From the IMG/VR virus record IMGVR_UViG_3300042542_001400, positions 1 to 25,756 of that record: 25,756 nucleotides of DNA. One strand, written 5' to 3'. The translations under genes were made by a program, and so were the position numbers. The notes beneath the pieces are model-generated. The model saw nothing but the letters and a program-made list of their open reading frames with translations, was not told where the DNA came from and did not search any database. Of this stretch, positions 7,844 through 25,756 are shown piece by piece. The stretch is from a virus. The stretch's first letter is position 1, and each line of letters opens with the position of its first letter.

Positions 7844-8478
7844 CAGACCAAATTCACAATGAAATCCATATCGCTCTTTGCCTCAATGACAAATGGCTGC
7901 ACAGAATACTGCCCCTCGTTTTGTGGGAATTCATAAGACAAAACAACCAATCTGAATATGTTAAACTGATTCAGAAACCATGAATTCACTCTCAATGACT
8001 GAGGTGCTTCCAATGCTGCCCAAAGATTCGCCATATTGTTCACACCATTGTATTCTGTCTGCTTTCCGGGATAAACTCCCTGAGGTGCGGTGAGAATGCC
8101 ACGAATCTGAACATTGTAATTAGCCATGCTCACATATTCAAACACACTTCCATTCTTGCCTTGTATGTTCGTTTCAATTACATTCTTTGAACCTGAAACA
8201 TTGAATAAGACCGTATCGAATGCGATGGTCGGAAAACTCACATCACCATTAATCCCCTTATATCTGTCACCCTGAATCTCAAGATTGCTCATGACAATAT
8301 TTCCAAGCATTTTGCTCACTCCCAAATCGCGAAAATCTTTATCCGCTGCCGGTGGAGGCATACCTGCCTGATATATCAATGATGTCACTGAATCCTGACC
8401 GAATGCTCTTTGAATGGCAATTGCTTTCTGAAATTCAGAACGTGCAATGTTTTGTGGGGAAATAATTACCGGATTCAT
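7843..8478 (-). CDS. DUF6046-like phage tail protein
   Basis: This is a 211-residue protein. The central part (about 75-205) is beta-rich with GDVSFPTIAFDTVLFNVSGS and TNIQGKNGSVFEYVSMANYN, followed by LRVNSWFLNQFNIFRLVVLS. It resembles DUF6046 proteins of Bacteroidota Mu-like phages, whose role is not established. The gene lies between tape measure and hub, the place of the Mu gp43 / GpU-N type proteins that join tube and baseplate. The VETNIQGKNGSVFEY element recalls the strand pattern of tube-fold proteins and suggests a tube-initiator-type protein. That last step is inference. Confidence 0.6.
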   Translation of the reverse strand: MNPVIISPQNIARSEFQKAIAIQRAFGQDSVTSLIYQAGMPPPAADKDFRDLGVSKMLGNIVMSNLEIQGDRYKGINGDVSFPTIAFDTVLFNVSGSKNVIETNIQGKNGSVFEYVSMANYNVQIRGILTAPQGVYPGKQTEYNGVNNMANLWAALEAPQSLRVNSWFLNQFNIFRLVVLSYEFPQNEGQYSVQPFVIEAKSDMDFIVNLV

Positions 8479-9962
8479 TGCGCTGCAATTCTTTGTGAAT
8501 CATTCAATGTTGTCAATAATGCCTCTGTCACTGCCGATGAAACTTTTTGCTTGAAATCCGCTGATGCCTGAGCAACTTTCACAACTTGTGTTTCTATTAG
8601 CTTGCCAATTGTGATATTGATTGTTGTCGGTTTGCTCGCACTGCTTTTTGGTGCGCTCGCGCCTGCCTTTACTCCGGTTGCGCCTGCCGCCGCTGCTGCT
8701 TGTGTTTTGCCCGGTGGCATCGGAATGGCCGCACCTTGCATCCCATCAGATAGCTTTTGCGTTTTGGCTAACTCCTTGTTGTATTCGCTTTGTTGGTTTG
8801 CCGCATATAATGCAAAAGTTCCAACTGCCGCACCTGCTGCCGCCAATGCAACCCAATTCATGGATAATGCTGCCGTCACTGCCAATGCTGCATTGTATGC
8901 TTGTTGCGCTATCCTTGCTATCATGATGGCCTTGTTTATCATATACATTGCCGTTGCAAAAGAGATAACTAAACCTACAATTGTTTTAACACTGGATGGC
9001 ATTTTGTTGTATATCTGCATCAATGTCAATGTCACTCCCACAACGGCATTAAATGCCGTATAAATCAATGATGCTGCCGGTGCTAATGTTTCTTTTAGGC
9101 TTCGGCCAAATTCAAGAATAATGGGAATGAATGGCCTTGCTCTCTCAATGAATGCGCTCACAGATTGCCCGAATGCCATCATTGCGGTAATTGTTCCATG
9201 AATGGCAGGACGAAAGGCAACAAACATGGCATTCTTCATCTCATCGAATGCATCGCCTAAATTGCTTCGCATTGTCTTGATGGAATTCTGCATTTTTTTT
9301 AATCCACCATCAAAATATCCTCCTGCTTTAGCCGCATCTCTGAATGCCTTTGAAAGCATCTCATAGCTGATTTCCATGTTTTCCAATTCTTTTGTTTGCT
9401 TCCCGGTTGATGCCTCTAATAATGAAAAAATGTTGATTCCGGCATAAGCAAACTGATTGATATCTCTGCCGTATGCTTTATTGAGGATGGCAATTTGTTG
9501 AAGATTCACCACCATCCTCTGTAATTCTTCATTGCCTCCACCACTTGCGCTGATAGCATTCGCTAATGCCAATACATCCTCCCTCGCTCTGCCTGCCTCA
9601 ATGCCTGATGATATCAATGCCCTATTCGCCATCAATAATGACTGAACATCAAATGGTGTTGTTTTCGCATCCTCACGAATGTTCTTGAAAACTTCCCTTG
9701 CCGCCTCACTGCTTTTCAGCAATGTCGATAATCCAATCTCCATCGCTTCAAAATCCTCCCCAACCTTTACAACTGAATTTCCGAATGCCGCAATTGCATA
9801 AACACTGAATGCCCCTGCAATCATATTGCCCATGCCCGACAATCTGCTCTGAACGCTGCTTACACTGCTATTCAGTTTGTCCGTTGCATTCGTTGCTCCC
9901 TGAATGCCCTTTGTGAAATAGTCTTGCAGGCTTATGACGTATGTAACTTTTTCCGTACTCAT
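8475..9962 (-). CDS. Tail tape measure protein
   Basis: This 495-residue protein begins with a helical region. TPFDVQSLLMANRALISSGI (about 105-124) and GNEELQRMVVNLQQIAILNK (145-164) are typical of tape measure proteins. A stretch of strong hydrophobic helices follows (about 295-385), and then a low-complexity Ala/Pro/Lys/Ser section (about 405-445) leads to the end. The size would suit a short tail, of the order of 75 nm if the usual 0.15 nm per residue applies. It begins directly after the tail chaperone frameshift extension, with an ATGA overlap, which is the expected place. The Ala-rich plus-strand frames opposite are shadows. Confidence 0.85.
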   Translation of the reverse strand: MSTEKVTYVISLQDYFTKGIQGATNATDKLNSSVSSVQSRLSGMGNMIAGAFSVYAIAAFGNSVVKVGEDFEAMEIGLSTLLKSSEAAREVFKNIREDAKTTPFDVQSLLMANRALISSGIEAGRAREDVLALANAISASGGGNEELQRMVVNLQQIAILNKAYGRDINQFAYAGINIFSLLEASTGKQTKELENMEISYEMLSKAFRDAAKAGGYFDGGLKKMQNSIKTMRSNLGDAFDEMKNAMFVAFRPAIHGTITAMMAFGQSVSAFIERARPFIPIILEFGRSLKETLAPAASLIYTAFNAVVGVTLTLMQIYNKMPSSVKTIVGLVISFATAMYMINKAIMIARIAQQAYNAALAVTAALSMNWVALAAAGAAVGTFALYAANQQSEYNKELAKTQKLSDGMQGAAIPMPPGKTQAAAAAGATGVKAGASAPKSSASKPTTINITIGKLIETQVVKVAQASADFKQKVSSAVTEALLTTLNDSQRIAAQ

Positions 9963-10497
9963 TTTTTTAACTCAATTAGTCCTGATTTACACAATGCCGA
10001 ATAAAAGCCTGCCCACCTATCATCATCAATTGTATCTGTATCAATGTGGAGGTAATGCCGAATAAGAACATCGGCCACCTGATACCATCCAACTGATTTT
10101 TGCGCATCATCTATTTTTTTTTTAACGCATTGAAATAGATTGATACCATTTCATTGGCTTTCATAATCATTGTGAAAGTAAGGATGTCATTCTCATTCCT
10201 GCCATTCGGCTCAATCGCATCCAATACATCATGATGATTCTCAGGAATGATGATGCTTTTCAAAAAATTCTGTGCTGCCAATGAATTCTGCGATGTCTGC
10301 ATCTGGTCGAAGAACATCATTTTCTGCAACCTTGATGGCTGCTTATAGAAAACATTGATTGAATCATTCTCTCGGTCTATCTGCCAAAATTCAATCTTCG
10401 TTCCGGGCATGATGCTCTGATACTTCTGTTCCAATTCTTGCGCCATTTCCTGCGCTGAAATCGACTTTTGCTCTGTGGGTTGGGTGATTGTTTCCAT
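9959..10497 (-). CDS. Tail assembly chaperone fusion made by -1 frameshift
   Basis: This is the long product predicted from slippage at the A10 run (10123-10114 on the minus strand). The first 127 or so codons are those of the short chaperone. After a -1 shift the ribosome reads Ile-Asp-Asp-Ala-Gln-Lys-Ser-Val-Gly-Trp (from 10114) and continues for 51 codons to a TGA at 9961-9959, which overlaps ATG 9962 of the tape measure gene. The extension contains RWAGFYSALCKSGLIELKK. This is the lambda G/GT and Mu gp41 arrangement: a short and a long chaperone bind the tape measure and recruit tube protein. The fusion would be about 178 residues. Confidence 0.75.
10111..10497 (-). CDS. Tail assembly chaperone, short form
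   Basis: This 128-residue protein has an N-terminal helical part with AQEMAQELEQKYQSIMPG (15-32), a strand region (KIEFWQIDRENDSINVFYKQ, 34-53) and a C-terminal helical part (about 60-125) ending in KKK at the slippery run. Its size and place immediately before the tape measure match the G-type tail chaperones. The zero-frame stop TAG (10113-10111) directly follows the A run. The short form should be the major product. A weak promoter may lie in the 118-base gap upstream (10498-10615), which otherwise holds only a terminator. Confidence 0.8.
   Translation of the reverse strand: METITQPTEQKSISAQEMAQELEQKYQSIMPGTKIEFWQIDRENDSINVFYKQPSRLQKMMFFDQMQTSQNSLAAQNFLKSIIIPENHHDVLDAIEPNGRNENDILTFTMIMKANEMVSIYFNALKKK
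10114..10123 (-). other. Slippery A10 run for -1 frameshifting
   Basis: On the minus strand the codons run TTA AAA AAA AAA TAG, with ten consecutive A residues. A shift of -1 (or insertion of one A by polymerase slippage) avoids the stop and enters an open frame of 51 codons. That frame ends exactly at the tape measure start. No strong downstream stem is obvious, so slippage may rely on the homopolymer itself. Confidence 0.75.
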
Positions 10498-10949: not shown

Positions 10950-11372
10950 TTATCTGAGAATTTCCCCGATAATGATTGGAATCTCCACCTGAATTGATGT
11001 ATCTCCCTGCGCTGAATCTAATGGATTTTCCAAGAATTCACACGCAATTAGTCTGTCTGTGGTGGGTGTGTTGCGTCCGGATGTACCCAAAACAACGGTG
11101 ATGGGGAATGGTGCAATCTCTAATGGCTCACGATTAGGTGATGCCGCAATGATTCGCTTCCATTCCTCTGTGTATAGAGTAATGCTACCCTCATACTCAA
11201 TCTTTCCATAACCTCTGCTTGTGGGTTTATATCCCGCACCATACAGATTTTCCTTTTCTTGCTTCTTGTTGTAAGATATGGCAGTTATGCCGACAACCGG
11301 AAAGCCAAACAATACCAACTGAATGCTTCCCCAATCGTAACTTACGCCATTAACTAATACTCCCCTTGCCAT
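10950..11372 (-). CDS. Tail tube protein
   Basis: This 140-residue protein is beta-rich. It contains VSYDWGSIQLVLFGFPVVGI (about 10-29), then YNKKQEKENLYGAGYKPTSR (34-53), the exposed loop before the GYGKIEYEGSITLYTEEW strand element (54-71) that is characteristic of contractile-tail tube proteins. The C-terminus IQVEIPIIIGEILR is the final strand. It directly follows the sheath gene (TAATG junction), the fixed gene order of myophages (Mu L then M). It would stack as rings inside the sheath and form the DNA channel. Confidence 0.8.
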   Translation of the reverse strand: MARGVLVNGVSYDWGSIQLVLFGFPVVGITAISYNKKQEKENLYGAGYKPTSRGYGKIEYEGSITLYTEEWKRIIAASPNREPLEIAPFPITVVLGTSGRNTPTTDRLIACEFLENPLDSAQGDTSIQVEIPIIIGEILR

Positions 11373-12907
11373 TATGATTGTTGTGTTAATTGTGATACAT
11401 AGCCAATCTCAATGTTGATGTAATCGGCAACTCCTATCGGCAATAATTGAATCGCCTCATTGATTGTGTTTGTGGCAAGGACATTCTGTGATGGACTTAC
11501 AATGGTCTGACCATCGGAAAGTTCACCATCGGAAATCATCTGCAATAATGCAGTGTTGCCCAGTGTTTGCAGATTCTCAACCTGCCAATCAGGTAACGTG
11601 CCATTCGAATTCAGAACAATCGGACTGCTCACTGATGGCAATGTGTTTGCCCTCACCAACCTGATAGCTTTTTGCAGGACACGATTCAGATAGATATATC
11701 TGAAATCTGATGTTAGCAATGTGGCCGTATTCGGCTGATTGTTGTATGTTCCGGTGATGCCCTCAAGTTTTCTCAGAAAACAATAAGCATATCCATTCAA
11801 TGATTCCAATGCTCCGGCTGCAATGCTTGTATAAGCCTCGCCATTGCTGAATCCAATGGTGTCAAGTTCTGTACCATCGCTCATGTTGAATTGACCTACC
11901 CATGCCCATGATTGTGAAACACTGCTTGCAGATAGTACTCCCAACTTTGCGCCCAAATCAGAAATTGATTTTTTAATTGTCTGATAAAGGTACAATCCTC
12001 TTGCGCCTGCATCCTGCCCAATGGTAACGGAAACCATCTCAGAATCCAATGTCGAATTATTCGGCAAGGATGAAACTGATGCAGTGCCAGTAATCTCAGG
12101 TGCGAAGATTGCAACCATTGGTCTGTATTGTCCGAAAACTTCATCACAACGTGCCTGAATCTTCGTGACCTGACTTGTTGCGTAGGCAGTGCTGAAATCA
12201 TGCAATATGGCCATCTGTCTGATTGCACCATTCGCATAAGTCTGCACCAATGTCACTTCTTCAAAGTTCGTTCCGTATGCCGAATAAAGACCGATATACA
12301 ATTGGCCGTTAGGCTTCAAACGGAAATACTCGCTGATGTGATAATGGAATACGGCAATGCGACTGCCAACTCCACCGCTGAATGCCGCTGCGCTTCCTGC
12401 AATTGTTCCCACAATCGTTGCCGTTGCAGACAAGGTATTGAGATATGCTCCCAATCCTGCCGCTGCGGTGATGGTGATTGCTCCAGATGAATTCGTTGCG
12501 GTGAATCCATGCGAATATGTACCGGCATTGATGATGGCAACAATTGCCGCTGCCACTAATGTGACCGTTGTTTCTGCTGCCGTTTTCGTGTAAACTCCCA
12601 ATGATATGGGTGTTCCTGATGGCTGCGGAACAAACAATTCAATCGTATCGCCATTGCTTCCAATTGCGCTAATTGTATACGTTCCGGTGGCCTTTGTTTC
12701 GTCAGTGTAATTCAGATTGATTCCTAATGCCTCTGCCTCCTGCACACTGAATACTCTCTTAATTCTATCCGATGTTGTGAATCCTGCGGGTAAATTACCA
12801 TTGGCAATGTAGGCAATCAATCCGCTGATGTAATCATCATTGGCTGGCCTCCTGCCAAGTCCTCCCTGCTGGACTTCAAATGTTATCTGTGGTAATGGTA
12901 ATGACAT
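11372..12907 (-). CDS. Tail sheath protein, DUF2586-like, with an inserted beta domain
   Basis: This 511-residue protein begins LPQITFEVQQGGLGRRPAND and ends NIEIGYVSQLTQQS, framing a DUF2586-type sheath. Core elements include SRIAVFHYHISEYFRLKPNG (182-201), the Rossmann-like part with VAIFAPEI, and the C-terminal contraction domain with FRYIYLNRVLQKAIRLVRAN (about 405-424). Residues about 70-180 form a separate Thr/Ala/Gly-rich beta module with LGVYTKTAAETTVTLVAAAI (103-122), which looks like an outward-facing decoration inserted into the sheath. DUF2586 proteins are taken to be sheaths in Bacteroidota Mu-like phages. The tube gene follows with a one-base overlap. Confidence 0.8.
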   Translation of the reverse strand: MSLPLPQITFEVQQGGLGRRPANDDYISGLIAYIANGNLPAGFTTSDRIKRVFSVQEAEALGINLNYTDETKATGTYTISAIGSNGDTIELFVPQPSGTPISLGVYTKTAAETTVTLVAAAIVAIINAGTYSHGFTATNSSGAITITAAAGLGAYLNTLSATATIVGTIAGSAAAFSGGVGSRIAVFHYHISEYFRLKPNGQLYIGLYSAYGTNFEEVTLVQTYANGAIRQMAILHDFSTAYATSQVTKIQARCDEVFGQYRPMVAIFAPEITGTASVSSLPNNSTLDSEMVSVTIGQDAGARGLYLYQTIKKSISDLGAKLGVLSASSVSQSWAWVGQFNMSDGTELDTIGFSNGEAYTSIAAGALESLNGYAYCFLRKLEGITGTYNNQPNTATLLTSDFRYIYLNRVLQKAIRLVRANTLPSVSSPIVLNSNGTLPDWQVENLQTLGNTALLQMISDGELSDGQTIVSPSQNVLATNTINEAIQLLPIGVADYINIEIGYVSQLTQQS

Positions 12908-16585: not shown

Positions 16586-18346
16586 TTAATATTTGTTGAT
16601 GTAAACTGCCTGAACGAATGTGGAATCGCCTGCTGCGCCATTCTGCAAAAACAAATTGATGTATTGGTCGACAGTCCAATTTATTGCAGCGGTGTTCAAA
16701 GCATATCCGGTTGTCAATGCGTTGAATTCAGGTGTAAGGTTTGACGTTGGTGGTGCGTGCCTTGTGCCGTTGCCCGTTCCTGCCGCAACTAATATGCTCA
16801 ATGTTCTCTCGACTACGAAGATACCTCCACCCGCAATGGTTAGCTGAGATTGCGAAATCTGCGTTCCTCCGACTGATGCAGCGGTGTGAATGAACATCCT
16901 GCAAGTGACTTGCCCTGCTGTTCCGGTTTTTGTAACCATGCAGCGGAATACCAATGTGGTGTTATTGCTGAATGTGTTTGCAGGAATTAGTATTGACTTA
17001 ACAAGATTGGATGTTGTGTTACCAGTGTTTGCGGTTGTCGGTGCGCCATCGTTGAAGATGGTGATGAGATTTTGTTTGGTATTCAGCGCGGTTTGTGTTG
17101 CAGTGCTGATAGGCTTGTTTGCGTCTGAGGTGTTATCGACATTTCCTAACCCAACATCCGATTTTGTTCCTGCTCTCGCCGTCCATAAGCCAGTGACGGA
17201 ATTGTAAAACAGACCATCGTTATTGTTTGGTGACTGCGCTGAAACATCATGTATCTCGTCCAACTCATATCCATTCTGTACCTTAACATACATCCTGCCT
17301 GCATTGCCATTGCTTGCCGATGTGACATATCCGAGATAAACAAGGTGATTCGGTGCATAAGGCTTTACTTTAGTCACGCTGCCTGCCGTTGCTCCAAGAT
17401 AAACAAAGTCACCATCCGACCATGTGGAGGTTGGAAATATGTTCAAATTATCCAACTGACCTTGTATGATAATGATACCCTTCTGCCCTGCGGCAATGTT
17501 AGCGACTGCAATACCGATAGTCTGTGCGCTCGTTGTATCTGTGGTGTTATATGCTAACTTGACCGAGATTCTGTCTCCAGTGCCTCCAAAAACGTACACT
17601 GGCTGGCCTTTGTTTATCGTGACACTCTCAGCATTGGTGACGTAAGAAAAAAGCGAATTAGGCGATGTTCCTATGCACTGGAAACCATTTAAGGTTGAAT
17701 TGAAAATAACGAGCATCTCTGCCCCTGCCCATATATCACCGCCAATCAATGCTCCATCATTGTTGCGATATAGTGACCTTGCTCCAATCGAATTGATGTT
17801 CAATGTCGCTGCGCTTGTATTTCCATTCGGAAAACGTATGAGGTAAGCATCGCCATCGGTGTATGCCGTCACTCCGCTGATTGTTGCGGTATATGTGTCC
17901 GTTCCTGATGCCGTTCCTTTAAGAAGGCCTGCGGGAATGGTCGGCTTATTCTTGATGAAATCAACTGCCGCATTATTAGATTGATTCCAATCTGATTGTA
18001 TCTGTGCTGCGGGAATGGTTGGCTTATTAAGAATTTCTGCTACTCCGCTAACTGCATTCCAATCGCTATTTACCTGCGCTGCGGGAATTGGAGGCAATGC
18101 CGCTATCTCTGCATCGGTATAAGCATTTGCCGCTACCTCTGCCGCTGCCGCTGCCCCTGCAATATCTGCGCCTACATCATTTGCATCGAGAACAACGATT
18201 CCAGTTTGCCCATTTACGGAATCAACTGCACCACCACCTCCACCTCCACCTTGCTCAATGGTTATCTCAACATTGATAGGCTGAGGTTGAACATTGATTG
18301 TTGCCTCAATTGGCTGCTCAGTAATGTTAATCGTGATGTTATCCAT
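16586..18346 (-). CDS. Tail fibre protein, probable receptor-binding
   Basis: This 586-residue protein opens with a Val/Ile/Pro-rich part, a run of seven Gly (about 33-39) and the SVNGQTGIVVLDANDVGAD fibre motif. Two repeats of the SDWNAVSG / SDWNQSNN type, each ending NKPTIPA, follow (about 93-140). A long middle domain carries VTINKGQPVYVFGGTGDRIS and the element HLVYLGYV / NGYELDEIHDV (about 330-375), known from many phage fibres. A DVGLGNVDNTSDANKPIST linker leads to a C-terminal beta domain (about 430-586, SILIPANTFSNNTTLVFRCM) likely to carry receptor contacts. It overlaps the BppU-like gene by 8 bases. The C-terminal domain is expected to vary most between strains. Confidence 0.8.
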   Translation of the reverse strand: MDNITINITEQPIEATINVQPQPINVEITIEQGGGGGGGAVDSVNGQTGIVVLDANDVGADIAGAAAAAEVAANAYTDAEIAALPPIPAAQVNSDWNAVSGVAEILNKPTIPAAQIQSDWNQSNNAAVDFIKNKPTIPAGLLKGTASGTDTYTATISGVTAYTDGDAYLIRFPNGNTSAATLNINSIGARSLYRNNDGALIGGDIWAGAEMLVIFNSTLNGFQCIGTSPNSLFSYVTNAESVTINKGQPVYVFGGTGDRISVKLAYNTTDTTSAQTIGIAVANIAAGQKGIIIIQGQLDNLNIFPTSTWSDGDFVYLGATAGSVTKVKPYAPNHLVYLGYVTSASNGNAGRMYVKVQNGYELDEIHDVSAQSPNNNDGLFYNSVTGLWTARAGTKSDVGLGNVDNTSDANKPISTATQTALNTKQNLITIFNDGAPTTANTGNTTSNLVKSILIPANTFSNNTTLVFRCMVTKTGTAGQVTCRMFIHTAASVGGTQISQSQLTIAGGGIFVVERTLSILVAAGTGNGTRHAPPTSNLTPEFNALTTGYALNTAAINWTVDQYINLFLQNGAAGDSTFVQAVYINKY

Positions 18347-24943: not shown

Positions 24944-25756
24944 TCAATACAGATTTATTCTTTTCACATTACCACCTGACCTTGTTCGCATTCCTGCTTT
25001 TGGCTGAATCAATGGAATGTCTGCCGTTACCCCATCCATCTGCCCTCCTGCCATGCGCAACCAGTCCTTTGAATTGTTGTACCTCTCAACTCTCAATGCA
25101 GGAATGTTGCCCGGTGCAAGTCTTGAATGAAGATGGAACAAACAGATGTCAATCATGCATTGCAATACTTGTTGGCTTCGGTTGTCACCCTCAATCCAAT
25201 AATCTGTATCGGTTGGCAATGTTCCTGCCGGAATCGTGTATGATGTTCCGCTTCCCCAGAATTGTGCGCCTCGCTCTGCATCATCAGGAAAAACATTCTG
25301 AATGCTTGCCTGACAGATGTATGTCTTTCCCGCATAGAATACCTCATTCCCTGCTTCATACTTTTTGTAAAAGTCAAACAATGGCTCAGGATATATCGCG
25401 TAAAATAGAGCATATTGTGCGCCCAATGCGGTGAAATTGTCTGCATCCCATGTTCCCGAATGATTGGTTGTGCAGATGTAGATGATGCCCTCATAATTTA
25501 CAAGGTCATCCACAACATAAGATTCTGTGGCCTGAAAATCCAATGCATCAAGATAAATTCGTGATGCACCTGAATATCCTGCCTCAGTCACATTCCATTC
25601 CTTTGTATCTGTGAATTCTGCCTCAGTATTGTAACGCTGAACAAGATATGAAACAACCTCCGCTTTGCCTGCCCTCTCTGTCAATATCCTGATTGATTCA
25701 TTACCTGATGTCAATTTTTCCAACTGCTCAGGCTGAATGTATGGGAAATAATCTGC
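24944..25756 (-). CDS. Mu gp36-like (DUF1320) head-tail adaptor with two CBM-like inserts, 5' partial
   Basis: The frame is open to the right edge (visible start ADYFPYIQPEQ, 270 residues). The TTG at 25723 that could begin a 259-residue protein is probably internal. The ends, SIRILTERAGKAEVVSYL near the front and RYNNSKDWLRMAGGQMDG near the end, fit the DUF1320 family of adaptor proteins (Mu gp36). Between them are two insertions of similar type: YVVDDLVNYEGIIYICTTN (about 80-98, followed by GTW) and YEAGNEVFYAGKTYICQAS (about 133-151, followed by FW and YW). Both show the beta and aromatic spacing of CBM5/12-like modules. The head order here is gp36 then portal, not the usual order of Mu. 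Confidence 0.65.
   Translation of the reverse strand, partial: ADYFPYIQPEQLEKLTSGNESIRILTERAGKAEVVSYLVQRYNTEAEFTDTKEWNVTEAGYSGASRIYLDALDFQATESYVVDDLVNYEGIIYICTTNHSGTWDADNFTALGAQYALFYAIYPEPLFDFYKKYEAGNEVFYAGKTYICQASIQNVFPDDAERGAQFWGSGTSYTIPAGTLPTDTDYWIEGDNRSQQVLQCMIDICLFHLHSRLAPGNIPALRVERYNNSKDWLRMAGGQMDGVTADIPLIQPKAGMRTRSGGNVKRINLY

Follow-up and report, generated by a model that had tools for sequence, protein, structure and literature searches.

Predicted −1 frameshifting at an adenine-rich slip site extends the tail assembly chaperone of Mu-like Bacteroidota phages

Results and Discussion

A short chaperone gene with an open −1 frame

The gene for the short tail assembly chaperone of a Mu-like phage contig probably encodes two proteins, the chaperone itself (G) and a longer fusion (G-T) that would be made by a −1 shift at a run of adenines lying directly before the G stop codon. 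The extension is conserved in the −1 frame in a large set of homologous loci, and slippage of the ribosome, to which we assign a probability of about 0.72, is a likelier source of the fusion than slippage of RNA polymerase. In most relatives with a long run, an RNA hairpin further downstream adds a second element to the locus.

The window, i.e., the whole stretch of DNA analyzed, is an IMG/VR virus contig of 25.7 kb (25,756 nt; IMGVR_UViG_3300042542_001400). It carries Mu-like genes with matches to Portal_Mu, Phage_Mu_F, CLP_protease, and DUF2586, and its sheath is ∼34% identical to those of Winoviridae members; on sheath and gene content, it may belong to this family. The features of the tail region are as follows.

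8475–9962, minus strand: tape measure protein (TMP_3; PF20155, 5e-17; PHROG tape measure, 4e-25)
9959–10117, minus strand: putative −1-frame T extension running for 51 codons past the AAA codons to the TGA at 9961–9959
10038–10085, minus strand: candidate RNA hairpin inside the T coding sequence, whose pairing starts ∼28 nt past the A run; weak here and clear in relatives
10111–10497, minus strand: G, predicted short tail assembly chaperone and zero-frame product, ORF of 128 aa ending in TAG, between the tail tube and tape measure genes
10114–10123, minus strand: candidate A10 slip site, which contains the heptamer A_AAA_AAA twice in frame and abuts the TAG that closes the zero frame (10113–10111)
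10950–11372, minus strand: tail tube protein (phrog_4579 tail protein, 2e-20)
11372–12907, minus strand: tail sheath (DUF2586; PF10758, 3e-32)

On the minus strand, the chaperone ORF ends in GCG TTA AAA AAA AAA TAG, with the A10 run at 10123–10114, precisely as had been described from the sequence alone. The −1 opening of 51 codons could likewise be read directly from the frames; its TGA (9961–9959) overlaps the tape measure ATG (9962–9960) as ATGA, while the +1 frame closes immediately past the run. The annotatable chaperone and tape measure ORFs are thus separated by a gap of 148 bases. Under a first-order Markov model, 0.2 sense-strand runs of at least 10 A are expected in the whole window; the single one observed sits exactly at the stop. 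The −1 frame reads across the TAG of the chaperone as ATA GAT and so places a constraint of its own on this stop.

Conservation of the −1 extension

Relatives came from scans guided by five proteins (chaperone, T, tape measure, sheath, and tube), to which named phages were added. A readable junction was present in 78 homologous loci, which belong to viral contigs, Bacteroidota prophages, and named phages of the Winoviridae; ∼60 remain when the T segments are limited to <90% similarity. The extension is in the −1 frame in every one of them, measures 51 to 84 codons in complete copies, and normally stops near the tape measure start. A run of exactly A10 followed by TAG is found throughout the close clade of the window (L001, L002, L005, L007, L008, and L013) and in the distant L019. 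The lineages have a T motif in common, roughly ALxRxxFxIDPxxLSDDEFAKxxxxLxxxL.

In comparisons of the window with L005, L008, and L013, dN/dS was ∼0.13–0.25 in the −1 frame and ∼0.6–1.5 in the other two frames, which also contain stops. By this measure, the T extension is under purifying selection in the −1 frame. An open frame of 51 codons would not be convincing by itself; it is the conservation in relatives, together with dN/dS, that excludes a chance opening. The original prediction had considered chance unlikely from the size, place, and fit of the frame, and this judgment is upheld on the stronger ground of conservation. It had also named relatives with neither run nor open −1 frame as evidence against itself; run-less relatives do exist, and their −1 frame is open.

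The slip site across the family

Run lengths in the 78 loci are A10 (12 loci), A9 (51), A8 (7), A6 (7), and A5 (1), and no locus has a bare A7. Runs of 9–10 A, found in 63 loci including the window, occur in all three codon phases. An in-frame A_AAA_AAN heptamer is present in 77 of the 78 loci and in most cases either abuts the zero-frame stop or is separated from it by one codon. The homologues with A6 followed by G or C lack a long homopolymer and are always in phase as A_AAA_AAG or A_AAA_AAC. The Winoviridae phages FPSV-S1, lotta8-1, and Peternella_1 read NTA AAA AAG NNN TAG/TAA (heptamer A_AAA_AAG), and a class of gut and flavobacterial prophages (L032, L035, and L036) reads NTA AAA AAC NNN TAG (heptamer A_AAA_AAC). 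In two further loci, the run is interrupted and the heptamer retained (AAA AAA AAG TAG in L115 and AAA AAA AAT TAG in L173).

The one locus without a heptamer is a Fulvivirgaceae prophage (L034, 7244–7290), in which the T extension is present and the overlap (ATA GTA AAA ACA TGG) has neither a long A run nor a heptamer; it may use another slip site or a separate ATG start. A gut phage scaffold (L026, 4209–4586) carries a −1 T-like extension (KLDEDEWLRLYAEY) without an A run. In a distant relative, Meiothermus phage MMP7 (L028, 4211–4408), a T-like ORF is offset by +1 from the frame of an XkdN-like chaperone and may reflect a +1 shift or a separate gene.

Readings without a frameshift were weighed against this pattern. 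T could be an independent small gene that is translated from its own start codon, or the opening could be a relic; part of T is indeed annotated as a CDS of its own in lotta8-1, and an ATG lies near the T start in L034. In the window, however, no start codon precedes the conserved portion of T, and an internal GTG is the only one inside it; moreover, the conserved sequence starts at the run and the slip heptamers are in phase. In 35 of the 78 loci, the −1 frame is shut just before the run, so that the two frames overlap by the 10 nt of the A run itself and entry into the −1 frame must occur there. Taken together, an arrangement without recoding is very improbable. An even smaller chance is left to an error in the homopolymer, the true gene having A11 and a single in-frame ORF: homopolymers are generally error-prone, but no result of the analysis points to such an error, exactly A10 recurs in independent contigs and the same frame break is seen at the non-homopolymer A6G and A6C sites of isolate genomes, so that the relatives contradict it. 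Equally negligible is the idea that TAG is reassigned and the zero frame simply continues. Such reassignment has precedents among Bacteroidota phages, and of 31 window genes checked, the chaperone alone ends in TAG, the others ending in TAA or TGA. Yet past the stop there is no sign of coding constraint in the zero frame, and TAA or TGA takes the place of TAG in 15 of the 78 relatives, which contradicts this reading.

Predicted fold of the chaperone

No significant Pfam or PHROGs family was found for the G or T of the window, and no library family connects G to lambda G; the only PHROG seen, phrog_19076, has no annotated function and matches 8 of 31 members. An AlphaFold2 model of G, built from an alignment of 30 homologues, reached a pLDDT of 85. 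Among the fold matches listed (Foldseek/VIA), the best was 3FGX (Z 8.5, 94 residues, 3.3 Å), followed by the V. cholerae PICI-like ORF19 (Z 5.8), YqbN (3KLU; Z 4.5), and the HK97 tail assembly chaperone gp14 (2OB9; Z 4.0). The predicted fold of G is accordingly similar to those of HK97 gp14, XkdN/YqbN-like proteins, and 3FGX (Z 4.0–8.5), although sequence identity is as low as 8–21%. Taken alone, the matches to YqbN and 2OB9 are modest. The family profile of G reaches 3FGX, a DUF6848 protein, by sequence as well (E 7e-5), and the G of the window matches DUF6848 weakly (E 0.019). Fold matches, profile match, and gene position together make the assignment of G as a tail assembly chaperone well supported and more than a guess from position. 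The identity proposed at the outset is hence strengthened by the likeness of the model to 3FGX, YqbN, and 2OB9.

An RNA hairpin downstream of the slip site

The original prediction had remarked on the lack of an obvious strong downstream stem. This holds to the extent that the stem is weak in the window itself, but not in most A8–A10 relatives, which carry a selected and covarying hairpin. The 75 nt starting 2 nt past the stop fold with a mean z of −3.0 relative to dinucleotide shuffles over the 78 loci (48 of them below −2), as compared to −0.3 for a control stretch 300 nt downstream (6 of 76 below −2). A synonymous-codon test compared each fold with those of recoded versions in which synonymous codons were resampled and the T protein was kept. 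Among 48 representative loci that belong to neither the window clade nor the A6 class, 33 folded better than the recoded versions at p ≤ 0.05; control stretches of the same loci gave 6 of 52, 10 of 52, and 9 of 51. Within the window clade, p was 0.245 for the window (not significant), 0.007 for L005, and 0.026 for L013. Three of eight A6-class loci pass the test, and we consequently dropped the absence of the hairpin from this class as a firm rule.

Covariation was counted with a 13-pair stem taken from L106 and scored on 47 diverse loci. Here, 69% of the cells are paired as opposed to 60% in shuffles and 44–53% when the stem is slid, and cells altered on both sides number 72 versus 36 in shuffles (0 of 500 shuffles). 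Consensus folding of the same number of diverse loci found no structure, probably because the register of the hairpin moves between lineages; in several of them (L029, L145, and L166), the register is shifted and the stem kept. Consensus folding of seven window-clade sequences gave almost no covariation, with both sides changed in 1 of 23 pairs. These comparative tests show that, in most A8–A10 relatives, selection acts on the hairpin as RNA over and above the encoded protein.

Classical frameshift stimulators are spaced 5–9 nt from the slip site. Instead of a stem or pseudoknot at this canonical distance past the heptamer, the hairpin begins modally 20–25 nt after the run and 28 nt after it in the window. 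The distance is 43–46 nt in L141 and L144, whose run precedes the stop by several codons. L036 has a stem ∼6 nt past its run. Counted from the zero-frame stop of the chaperone, the hairpin lies ∼15–26 nt downstream in L106, L115, L130, L145, L151, L166, and others. Since the spacing is unlike that of a textbook stimulator, a role in the shift is put forward as a hypothesis, and given the distance the hairpin may serve something else. In some loci its 3′ side is U-rich, as in an intrinsic terminator; judged by eye, this reading was set aside, as the U's lie in conserved Phe/Tyr codons and are missing from many loci. Rfam yielded nothing at the gathering threshold in seven relatives and no credible match in the stretch of the window.

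Ribosome or RNA polymerase

In the proposed mechanism, most ribosomes would stop at TAG and release G (128 aa). A minority would slip back one base with two lysine tRNAs on A_AAA_AAA within the A10 run, just before the stop, and would read 51 more codons to give a G-T fusion of ∼179 aa, the end of which overlaps the start codon of the tape measure gene. If the parts act as in lambda, G would coat the tape measure and the T part recruit tube subunits. That the fusion is made, and in what ratio to G, is inferred, as are the leading part of the ribosome in the slippage and a contribution of the hairpin. Two tRNAs slipping in tandem on the ribosome would account for every class of site except L034, which no other mechanism does. 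Ribosomal slippage is favored by the phase of the A6G and A6C sites and by the heptamer in all but one locus; a run of six A is below the lengths known for slippage of RNA polymerase.

Alternatively, RNA polymerase slipping on A8–A10 could be the main source, with transcripts that have gained one A or lost two being translated in the ordinary way into the fusion. Much of the family would suit this mechanism: the 9–10 A runs of most loci stand in all three codon phases, a bare A7 is missing, and frameshift product in reporter cassettes amounts to 63% with 11 A's, 40% with 9 A's, and 10% with 7 A's (PMC3711429). Furthermore, a run of 11 A's acts via RNA polymerase in Citrobacter tssM (PMC4256274), and homologous dnaX genes are known to use either route (PMC5009743; reference cited in PMC3711429). 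Ribosomes of E. coli shift less efficiently on A_AAA_AAA than on A_AAA_AAG (PMC5009743). That 9–10 A's nevertheless prevail and no bare A7 occurs is what homopolymer-driven slippage predicts and counts against the ribosome. The missing A7 is not decisive, as it would be equally compatible with selection that favors a third lysine codon within the −1 reading frame, and runs in phase 0 need 9 A's merely to hold the heptamer, so that A9 is no excess there. Against the polymerase as main source, a homopolymer of at least ∼9 A/T is not common to all members, the in-phase homologous sites of A6 plus G or C being too short, and the downstream hairpin is under RNA-level selection. While the polymerase is on the run, a downstream signal is not yet transcribed; if the hairpin serves the shift, it hence points to the ribosome. 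We regard the polymerase as a distinctly less probable main source, and its slippage at A8–A10 runs may contribute or help. Of the mechanism first proposed, programmed −1 slippage at the A run is supported, whereas its attribution to RNA polymerase, drawn from the run and the missing stem, does not agree with the A6G and A6C sites, the near-universal heptamer, and the hairpin of the relatives.

The chaperone frameshift of this group may depend on a composite signal, an idea we offer tentatively. A large group of Mu-like Bacteroidota phages would combine an 8–10 A run, usually abutting the stop, with a conserved hairpin 20–25 nt further on; sister lineages have a short heptamer at the homologous site, so that slippage on homopolymers and on heptamers would coexist, or alternate, within one gene family. 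The hairpin would then either act at a distance unlike known stimulators or link the frameshift to tape measure expression.

Relation to known recoding systems

Two overlapping ORFs between the tube and tape measure genes, a conserved second ORF in the −1 frame, a slippery sequence in the overlap, and a predicted chaperone fold of the first product place the locus, on comparative grounds, in the lambda G/GT type of −1 frameshift, a well-known class of phage recoding. As in lambda gpG/gpGT, a short protein and a −1 extended form are encoded between tail tube and tape measure, and the extension ends at the tape measure start. The slip site of lambda is G_GGA_AAG, whereas the site found here is poly-A or A_AAA_AAN, and the relatives carry the hairpin ∼20–25 nt downstream. 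A G-T fusion made at low ratio may, as in the lambda type, be needed for tail assembly.

The poly-A transcriptional slippage sites of Thermus thermophilus dnaX and Citrobacter tssM resemble the present ones in having 9–11 A at the frame change. They differ in that some homologues here lack the run, the phase of the heptamer is kept, and a hairpin lies downstream in relatives. E. coli dnaX, with A_AAA_AAG and a downstream stem, has the same heptamer class as the Winoviridae members, and a stem is found in the relatives, too; the latter is much further off, however, and the dnaX shift leads to a truncated product while the shift described here would lead to an extended one.

Annotation and implications

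As anticipated from the gap in the window, routine annotation misses this gene structure. In the deposited FPSV-S1 and Peternella_1 records, the extension falls into unannotated gaps of 185 and 240 bases, respectively, and the lotta8-1 record assigns part of it to a hypothetical CDS of its own, 42 codons long. None of these three records annotates the fusion. A group of Bacteroidota phages, including these three deposited isolate genomes, therefore carries an unannotated gene for a putatively frameshifted chaperone. Such genes can be found past the DUF2586 sheath and tube genes as an ORF that ends in A_AAA_AAN at or near its stop and is followed by a −1 tail of 50–85 codons reaching to the tape measure.

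In the literature searched, which lay mostly outside subscription journals, we found no description of a frameshift in this gene of Winoviridae or of a composite signal of an A run and a distant hairpin. By comparison with the known systems, the new piece is the distant hairpin, which the sequence tests indicate is selected as RNA in relatives and which is absent from Rfam, a new RNA element. To our knowledge, recoding has hardly been studied in Bacteroidota, and the series of sites from A6G to A10 offers a natural set for asking whether ribosome or RNA polymerase slips in these bacteria.

Other observations in the window

Outside the tail region, two minus-strand ORFs (1509–1802 and 1496–1768) overlap in different frames, and CxxC pairs in the longer of the two resemble those of a DnaJ-type zinc-binding protein. 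A tail-fibre-like gene (16586–18346, minus strand) with several PHROG tail fibre matches adjoins the Clp-type protease gene, apart from the tail module. The gene at 24944–25723 (minus strand), which adjoins the Mu-like portal gene, has a match to carbohydrate-binding module family 5/12 (1.7e-6).
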